Shown piece after piece: positions 48,015 to 49,423 of a stretch of 64,000 bases of DNA. Source of the DNA: Myxococcota bacterium (GTDB lineage: Bacteria; Myxococcota_A; UBA796; UBA2385); assembly GCA_023150805.1 (NCBI GenBank), contig JAKLKF010000012.1, forward strand, positions 1 to 64,000. The letters run 5' to 3'. Under the pieces are notes generated by a model. It made no database searches and had not been told where the DNA came from. It saw only the letters and a program-made list of their open reading frames with translations. How positions within the stretch are numbered: the first letter of the stretch is position 1; each line of letters starts with the position of its first letter. The translations under genes were made by a program, and so were the position numbers.

Positions 48015-49097
48015 TCAGCCCCCGCCGGTGGCGGCGCGCGGGCCCCGGCGCTTGGAGGCCAGCCACGCCGGGTAGAGGCCGCGCACCAGCCGGGTCAAGG
48101 CGGCGTCGACCGCCTGGGTCGACGCCCAGACCCCCTCCGGCAGCGCCTGGCGCAGCAGCTCCTCGACCCGGGCGGCGCCCGCCGCGAGCGCATCGGGCGT
48201 GGGGGGTTCGTCCAGGCTGCCCAGCCGGGTCTGTCCACGCAGCCCGTCGAGCTGGCCCGACAGGCCGACGTTGCTGGGGTGGACGCTGCGGTCGGCGTCC
48301 ACGACCAGGCCGGTGTTGAAGAAGGGGGTGGGCGCCCAGGTGAACAGGTTGCGCAGGTAGAGGGGGCGGCCGGCGGCCCACTCCGCCCGGATCCGCTGCC
48401 CGATGGCCGAGAAGCCCGCCTCCAGCGCGTCGAGCTGGGCGGGCCTCCACGGCAGGTAGTAGCCGGGCAGCAGGTTGAAGCGGCGGAAGCCCAGCTCCAG
48501 CAGGTGGGCGAAGTTCTCGGCCGCCCGGGGAGCGGTCGAGGGCGCGATGGTCTGCGTCACGACCAGGCGAGGGGCGCGGAGCAGCGCGGGCAGCAGGTCC
48601 CGCACGTGCTGGTAGCTGTCGGCCACCCCGGGCAGGGCGCGGCGCAGCCCGCGGTGGTCCTCGGGCCGCCCGTCCAGGCTCAGGGTCAAGATGACCTTGG
48701 GCCGGGCCGCGAGGAGGTCGAGCCAGCCGGCGTCGAGCCCCAGCCCGTTGGTGCTCAGGTAGACGCGCCGGATCTCGGGGCGGGCGCTGGCCTCCTCGAT
48801 GGCAGCCCGCACCACCTGGGGCACCAGCAGGGGCTCGCCGCCGAAGAGCTTCACGTCGCCCGGCCGGCGCGCGTCCACGTAGCGGGTGGCGAACAGCGAG
48901 ACGGCCGCGCGCGCGTCCTGCTCCGTCAGCGAGGGCCAGCCGTCCTTGGCGGTCGGGCAGTAGGCGCAGCGCAGGTTGCAGGCCCGCGTCACCGTCAGGA
49001 TCATCGACGGCGGCATCGCCGCTGGCGCCGGGAAGGTCTCCCCGCGCGTCCCCTCACCCAGCACCGGGGCCGTCGGCTCCGCGCTGGGACCTACCAC
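48015..49097 (-). CDS. Radical SAM protein immediately downstream of the His-Xaa-Ser precursor
   Basis: ILTVTRACNLRCAYCPTAKDG; VKLFGGEPLLVPQVV; STNGLGLDAGWLDLL. Start GTG 49097 (overlaps precursor stop) or ATG 49016. Confidence 0.85.
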   Translation of the reverse strand: MVGPSAEPTAPVLGEGTRGETFPAPAAMPPSMILTVTRACNLRCAYCPTAKDGWPSLTEQDARAAVSLFATRYVDARRPGDVKLFGGEPLLVPQVVRAAIEEASARPEIRRVYLSTNGLGLDAGWLDLLAARPKVILTLSLDGRPEDHRGLRRALPGVADSYQHVRDLLPALLRAPRLVVTQTIAPSTAPRAAENFAHLLELGFRRFNLLPGYYLPWRPAQLDALEAGFSAIGQRIRAEWAAGRPLYLRNLFTWAPTPFFNTGLVVDADRSVHPSNVGLSGQLDGLRGQTRLGSLDEPPTPDALAAGAARVEELLRQALPEGVWASTQAVDAALTRLVRGLYPAWLASKRRGPRAATGGG

Positions 49098-49423
49098 TGC
49101 CCGTGGGAGCCGTGGCTGCCGTGGGAGCCGTGGCTGCCGTGGGAGCCGTGGCTGCCGTGCGAGCCGTGGCTGCCGTGCGAGCCGTGGCTGCCGTGCGAGC
49201 CGTGGCTGCCGTGCGAGCCGTGGCTGCCGTGCGAGCAGTGGGCCGCGAGCTGGATGCCGCCGCTGGCGGGGTCCGCGAGCAGGGCGTCCGCCTTGAGCAG
49301 CAGCTCGCTGCTGGCGTCGAGCTCCCCGGCGCTGGCCGCTTCGGTCCGCTGCAGGAAGTCGGCGGGCTTCTTGTCGATGGCGGGGAGCTTGGCGCTGCCC
49401 TTGTCCAGGTCCTTGGTGCTCAT
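49091..49423 (-). CDS. hxsA: His-Xaa-Ser repeat precursor-like protein (HxsA-like), 15 SHG repeats
   Basis: MSTKDLDKGSAKLPAIDKKPADFLQRTEAASAGELDASSELLLKADALLADPASGGIQLAAHC(SHG)15QW; 9 nt downstream of an HxsB-like radical SAM gene. Confidence 0.82.
   Translation of the reverse strand: MSTKDLDKGSAKLPAIDKKPADFLQRTEAASAGELDASSELLLKADALLADPASGGIQLAAHCSHGSHGSHGSHGSHGSHGSHGSHGSHGSHGSHGSHGSHGSHGSHGQW
49100..49234 (-). repeat. Tandem repeat, 18-nt unit (7.5 copies), encoding (SHG)15
   Basis: + strand gtg[g/c]gagccgtggctgcc repeated; minus strand GGCAGCCACGGCTC[C/G]CAC. Confidence 0.97.

Follow-up and report, generated by a model that had tools for sequence, protein, structure and literature searches.

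A Ser-His-Gly array protein of the HxsA4 family and its presumed radical SAM maturase in a Myxococcota bacterium

A short gene on a contig of a Myxococcota bacterium (the first 64,000 nucleotides of JAKLKF010000012.1, hereafter the window) encodes a protein that ends in a single tripeptide, Ser-His-Gly, repeated 15 times. The question raised by this locus is what kind of protein this is, and what the radical SAM enzymes encoded around it might do to its repeat. The concept of the His-Xaa-Ser system is credited in PMC9062424 to Haft and Basu 2011, and a search of the openly accessible literature turned up neither a product nor a function reported for such systems. The value of the protein described here is that of a clean test case for the action of the radical SAM enzyme HxsB in a family that is catalogued and chemically unexplained.

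The repeat protein and its gene neighbourhood

The open reading frame at 49091..49423 (-) passes the NCBIfam model for HxsA4 (NF038313, 82.8 bits, cut-off 55) over profile positions 1-93 of 93, and it belongs to this catalogued family, “His-Xaa-Ser repeat protein”, rather than being a one-off. Translation bears out the sequence-only reading of 110 residues with Cys63 as the sole cysteine, exactly 15 SHG units and a terminal QW. The same reading had set Cys63 apart as a residue at the boundary of leader and repeat, and this part did not stand: the natural register of the array is His-Xaa-Ser starting from His62 (HCS, 14 HGS, HGQ and Trp), so that Cys63 is the Xaa of the first unit. The leader comprises residues 1-61 (49241..49423 (-)) and carries the motif LPxLx[KR]xxxxFLxxxE, here LPAIDKKPADFLQRTE, which recurs in leader alignments of both classes of HxsA4 arrays, those ending in QW and those ending in SW. 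The array spans residues 62-109 (49097..49240 (-)) and is followed by the C-terminal Trp (49094-49096 (-)) and the stop codon. Without modification, the array part has a monoisotopic mass of 4788.90 Da. An AGGAGG ribosome-binding site (49429..49434 (-)) lies 5 nt upstream of the ATG and overlaps the stop codon of HxsB.

At the DNA level the array is an 18-bp tandem repeat with 98% matches, and as the assembly is a draft of 398 contigs, the copy number of 16 units could be affected by misassembly; the closest relative found, whose HxsB is 85% identical, has 7 units. Further tandem repeats in the window, at 31187-31330 (period 21 bp) and 11910-11986 (period 15 bp), are possibly coding.

The placement of the gene between two radical SAM genes, also pointed out from the letters alone, is confirmed, with HxsB upstream and a PapB-like enzyme downstream, and these two are part of a set of five radical SAM genes at the locus. 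HxsB (49433..50947 (-)) is a radical SAM/SPASM maturase that matches TIGR03978 with 503.1 bits (cut-off 370). It is preceded by an HxsD-like protein (50947..51210 (-); NF038315, 54.3 bits, cut-off 41) and HxsD (51194..51676 (-); TIGR03976, 55.5 bits, cut-off 50). Beyond these lie a protein of no known family with a twin-arginine signal (MDSRRKVLQQ...; 51673..52221 (-)), a lipoprotein-like Ig/PKD-domain protein (52221..54542 (-); Pfam Big_7) that adjoins the operon in part of the QW clade and has homologues in about 10 QW loci, and the fifth radical SAM gene (54647..55684 (-)), recognised by its CLQRCRFC motif and by phmmer searches of its relatives, and found near many QW loci. On the other side of HxsA4 are the PapB-like gene (48015..49016 (-), with ATG 49016 as its likely start; NF047865, 89.1 bits, below the cut-off of 340) and two genes for distant relatives of HxsC4, the second at 46985..48010 (-) and the first at 45830..46948 (-), which score 89.1 and 133.2 bits against NF038332 (cut-off 500). 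No HxsC or HxsC4 over cut-off was found at the locus (best scores 62.2 of 267.9 and 133.2 of 500, respectively), and this was not taken as excluding the assignment, because HxsA4, HxsB and HxsD pass their own cut-offs and because the HxsC-like enzymes of other HxsA4 loci also score below theirs.

The locus thus resembles the His-Xaa-Ser systems of NCBIfam in that HxsA4, HxsB, HxsD and the HxsD-like protein pass their cut-offs in one gene run, but differs from them in its two distant HxsC4 relatives, PapB-like enzyme and fifth radical SAM gene, and in the twin-arginine neighbour that is obligatory in its subclass. The structure model of HxsD (pLDDT 82) has the order strand-strand-helix-strand-strand-helix, and its identification as a classical winged-helix leader-binding domain was rejected; its top matches in the PDB are weak and of the RNA-polymerase subunit K/L type (E 2.6e-3). 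A structure model of fair confidence for the twin-arginine protein gave no usable fold match.

Several other features of the genome can be recorded here. A second HxsB over cut-off (453 bits; L208:6813-9441, G000 contig C166) is accompanied by a convergent HxsC4-like gene, and no His-Xaa-Ser repeat protein was detected near it; the genome has no HxsA3. The fifth radical SAM gene is flanked by two lipoprotein-like Ig/PKD-domain proteins, the one at 52221-54542 (-) and another at 55769-60361 (+), which have in common a C-terminal domain that is 47% identical and has its sole two genome copies in this pair. The smaller of the two and most of its relatives end in Trp (...TNGVW), as does HxsA4. A sulfatase-like protein at 41927-43486 (+) has a C-terminal Cys/Gly-rich stretch, a hydrophobic segment and an Arg cluster (CSALGGGGGLLLALAGLLGTRRRR), a tail which we take to resemble the MYXO-CTERM sorting tail.

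Selection on the repeat and pairing with HxsB

Searching 187 related genomes with the HxsA4 model gave a single match over cut-off in 63, or 65 if neighbouring same-frame matches were summed. A pattern scan of genome contigs returned at least 114 stretches, mostly in records named Myxococcales, Polyangia or Deltaproteobacteria; this set overlaps the HMM-found set and some of its record names are clearly wrong. Among the carriers of HxsA4 is a cultured Polyangium (records L140 and L155). Two pattern matches (L165 and L168) were rejected as out-of-frame chance matches without an HxsB over cut-off. Both sets together hold at least 131 distinct Myxococcota-type arrays, and those among the matches listed follow a common plan of a variable leader, HCS, a run of HGS units that closes with HGS or HGQ, and Trp at the C-terminus. 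The Trp is present in register in all 121 complete arrays among the matches listed. A cysteine falls within the first two units in 128/131 arrays among the matches listed, a count that is biased for the pattern-scan share, as the pattern required HCSHG; Cys-less arrays make up 2 of about 60 in the HMM-found set (L042 and L064).

For the HMM-found set, which comprises 952 internal units, codon changes were counted against the main codon of each array. The Ser codons had undergone 414 silent and no replacing changes, the His codons 135 silent and 1 replacing, and the Xaa codons 307 silent and 18 replacing. This indicates that the repeat is held at the level of the protein, with His and Ser both under selection and Xaa looser. 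Ser is encoded by TCN as well as AGY codons, and in one array (L139) the 14 units are written as 14 different 9-mers, every one of them SHG. No tripeptide occurred more than 2 times in tandem in 1000 codon shuffles of the HxsA4 frame studied here, versus the 15 observed.

The readings that the array is a DNA tandem repeat translated by chance, or a collagen-like triple helix with Gly at every third residue, are very improbable in the light of these numbers. The near-perfect 18-bp repeat speaks for the former, but the two kinds of Ser codons and the 14 distinct 9-mers that all spell SHG speak against it, and the shuffles together with the codon evidence rule out chance or a DNA-repeat artefact. 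The collagen reading can claim a Pfam Collagen match of 34.1 bits, above the cut-off of 27.2; yet Gly is the most changeable position of the unit (18 replacing changes versus 0 and 1), the reverse of what a collagen would show.

The earlier proposal that the protein is the substrate of a radical SAM maturase stands in a qualified form, as a presumed substrate: the neighbouring enzyme is HxsB by its curated cut-off, and the two co-occur genome-wide even when unlinked. HxsB over cut-off is present in 63/63 HxsA4 genomes versus 74/187 overall (p about 9e-39, a value that overstates independence because the genomes are related), and part of this co-occurrence mirrors shared ancestry. HxsA4 and HxsB also go together in genomes in which their genes are far apart. 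The neighbours of such unlinked HxsA4 genes were considered as other maturases and rejected, as they are housekeeping or unrelated genes (kinases, an aminotransferase, CcmE/CcmF, an L,D-transpeptidase, glycyl-tRNA synthetase) and HxsB is found elsewhere in the same genome. HxsD is present in 62/63 HxsA4 genomes. The sulfatase maturase, an unrelated radical SAM family, shows no association (4/63 HxsA4 genomes and 11/187 overall). Two genomes that pass HxsA4 on summed matches only (G043 and G182) are without HxsB, and G043 has HxsD.

These observations also bear on the idea of a His-rich metal-binding tail that is left unmodified or nearly so, the radical SAM enzymes having their sole targets in Cys63, the Gln-Trp end or another protein. 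The dense His residues fit such a tail, and the conserved Cys of the first unit and the C-terminal Trp could be the true targets of the enzymes, as could be read from the linkage of the QW ending to the PapB-like enzyme. However, Ser is conserved as strictly as His, which makes plain metal chelation less likely, since His chelation does not need a Ser without a single replacement in the face of 414 silent changes; and the Cys-less arrays L042 and L064 are likewise paired with HxsB. The metal-binding reading is, for these reasons, an unlikely one.

The pairing and the selection on both residues are instead consistent with a model in which HxsB probably modifies each His-Xaa-Ser unit of HxsA4 in the cytosol, after which the product would be exported. 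The leader motif would guide HxsB, probably with help from HxsD, and the enzyme would act along the array on HCS, the 14 HGS and perhaps HGQ. Speaking against this model, HxsD is unlike a classical leader-binding domain, and the locus yielded no gene for a protease or transporter that would remove the leader.

Subclasses, proposed export and occurrence outside the phylum

The QW and SW classes differ in their gene neighbours. A twin-arginine protein adjoins in 32/32 HxsB-linked QW loci versus 0/24 SW loci, and a PapB-like enzyme is linked in 26/30 QW versus 0/76 SW; in the HxsB tree the QW set forms one fully supported clade, so that these linkages represent one evolutionary origin kept throughout, and that of the PapB-like enzyme is given no independent weight as to function. 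One genome (G163) holds both classes, its QW gene within a full operon and its SW gene apart from it (L042 and L073). About 10 SW leaders have a twin-arginine motif of their own along with a hydrophobic stretch, and QW leaders are without them. From this arrangement, the folded-protein route would seem to serve export in both classes, with the signal either in cis or on a partner. In the QW subclass, the adjoining twin-arginine protein would be the likely partner for export or display, and in other subclasses HxsA4 would leave the cytosol by means of its own twin-arginine or hydrophobic signal.

Outside the phylum, an array together with an HxsB over cut-off was found among the matches listed in four Patescibacteria (L121, L147, L149 and L206). 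The genomes of Patescibacteria with HCSHG arrays are 1.0-2.1 Mb in size, and their HxsA3/HxsA4-like proteins have hydrophobic signal segments. In three of the four, the gene order is HxsD, HxsB, repeat protein and a further gene, this last gene being PapB-like by phmmer in two and by the curated model in the one scanned; in the fourth genome the frames need TGA to be read as glycine. These loci, with repeat proteins of the HxsA3 type (NF038309), resemble the one studied here in their HCSHG array, HxsD-HxsB-HxsA order and the radical SAM gene that follows. They differ in a leader that matches the HxsA3 model (below cut-off), in an array that often ends in Tyr, and in scoring below the HxsA4 cut-off. 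The retention of the array core in genomes so reduced suggests a function worth keeping, and the related core that Patescibacteria keep may speak for a structural element or a cofactor rather than an antibiotic.

That the product is a bioactive RiPP, cleaved from its leader and secreted as an antibiotic or signal, is a rather remote reading. The leader-core plan and the several tailoring enzymes are as found in RiPP clusters, but the core is nearly invariant across the phylum and in Patescibacteria, and antibiotics usually diversify. Many copies, moreover, lie away from any cluster, and neither a protease nor an exporter gene is conserved along with the repeat protein.

Candidate chemistry of the repeat unit

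On the model of per-unit modification by HxsB, the chemistry that comes to mind is that of the triceptides, which are three-residue cyclophanes (HaaB, YhhB, MscB). The bonds reported for radical SAM enzymes include those from His C2 to the C-beta of Ala or Arg, and from Phe to the C-beta of Ser (PMC11002830). In the core of a triceptide, an aromatic residue at i is paired with an sp3 carbon at i+2, as it would be in His-Xaa-Ser, and in both cases a radical SAM/SPASM enzyme is encoded beside the precursor. Since the first and third residues of the unit are fixed and the middle one is looser, the repeat matches the geometry of an i to i+2 crosslink. By analogy with the triceptides, a C-C bond from the imidazole of His(i) to the C-beta of Ser(i+2) may be tentatively proposed as the likeliest chemistry, though at less than even odds; such a bond would cost two hydrogens per unit, and one would expect from it a stiff polymer lined with imidazoles, located at the surface or in the periplasm, its length set by the number of repeats. 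No His-Ser bond was found reported in the triceptide literature examined. Unlike the triceptide systems, HxsA4 has up to 59 identical units, and HxsB falls outside their enzyme families by score, remaining far under the cut-offs for the cyclophane-forming families YhhB (46.9 of 445) and GrrM/OscB (45.1 of 310). It scores higher against thioether-forming and other maturases (CcpM, PapB, SCIFF maturase), and among solved sequences the radical SAM protein 5wgg comes nearest to it.

This distance of HxsB from the known cyclophane families also favours a different change in each unit, such as a Ser that is epimerised, oxidised or desaturated, or a His that is bonded to the backbone, with the rest of the model kept. 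Selection on both residues would also fit a Ser target with His serving recognition or function. Against this stands the strict spacing of His(i) and Ser(i+2) around a free middle residue, which is that of the reported i to i+2 crosslinks. A change of this other kind is a serious possibility that nonetheless falls short of an even chance.

The action of a radical SAM enzyme on a perfect short-repeat core has a parallel in TvgA, the precursor of a poly-cyclopropylglycine peptide, in which Thr-Val-Gly-Gly repeats are modified over and over, the chemistry taking place inside one Val side chain (PMC9062424). HxsB and HxsC fall in other sequence clusters than the enzyme of the TvgA system (PMC9062424). 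A ranthipeptide of the PapB type was considered and rejected, as the PapB-like enzyme reaches 89.1 of 340 against the PapB model and HxsA4 has one Cys only, where several Cys donors are required. The wider scheme, which takes the HGQW/twin-arginine subclass for a distinct system of two stages, has HxsB modify the array first and leaves the Cys of the first unit or the Gln-Trp end to be finished by the PapB-like and HxsC4-like enzymes, after which the protein would leave the cell with its twin-arginine partner as a crosslinked imidazole surface polymer; it would seem doubtful when taken as a whole.

The Cys at the first Xaa, the terminal Trp, the QW and SW classes, the twin-arginine partner, the occurrence in Patescibacteria and the selection on His and Ser were not found described in the literature searched. 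With its one repeated unit, near-invariant His and Ser, and wide natural range of lengths, HxsA4 is an unusually clean substrate. Any change made on every unit must scale with the number of repeats, so that the mass of the product should give the chemistry away. Among the matches listed, natural arrays run from 5 to 59 units, and at one locus (L146) two HxsA4 genes lie side by side, their arrays very long at 35 and 59 units.
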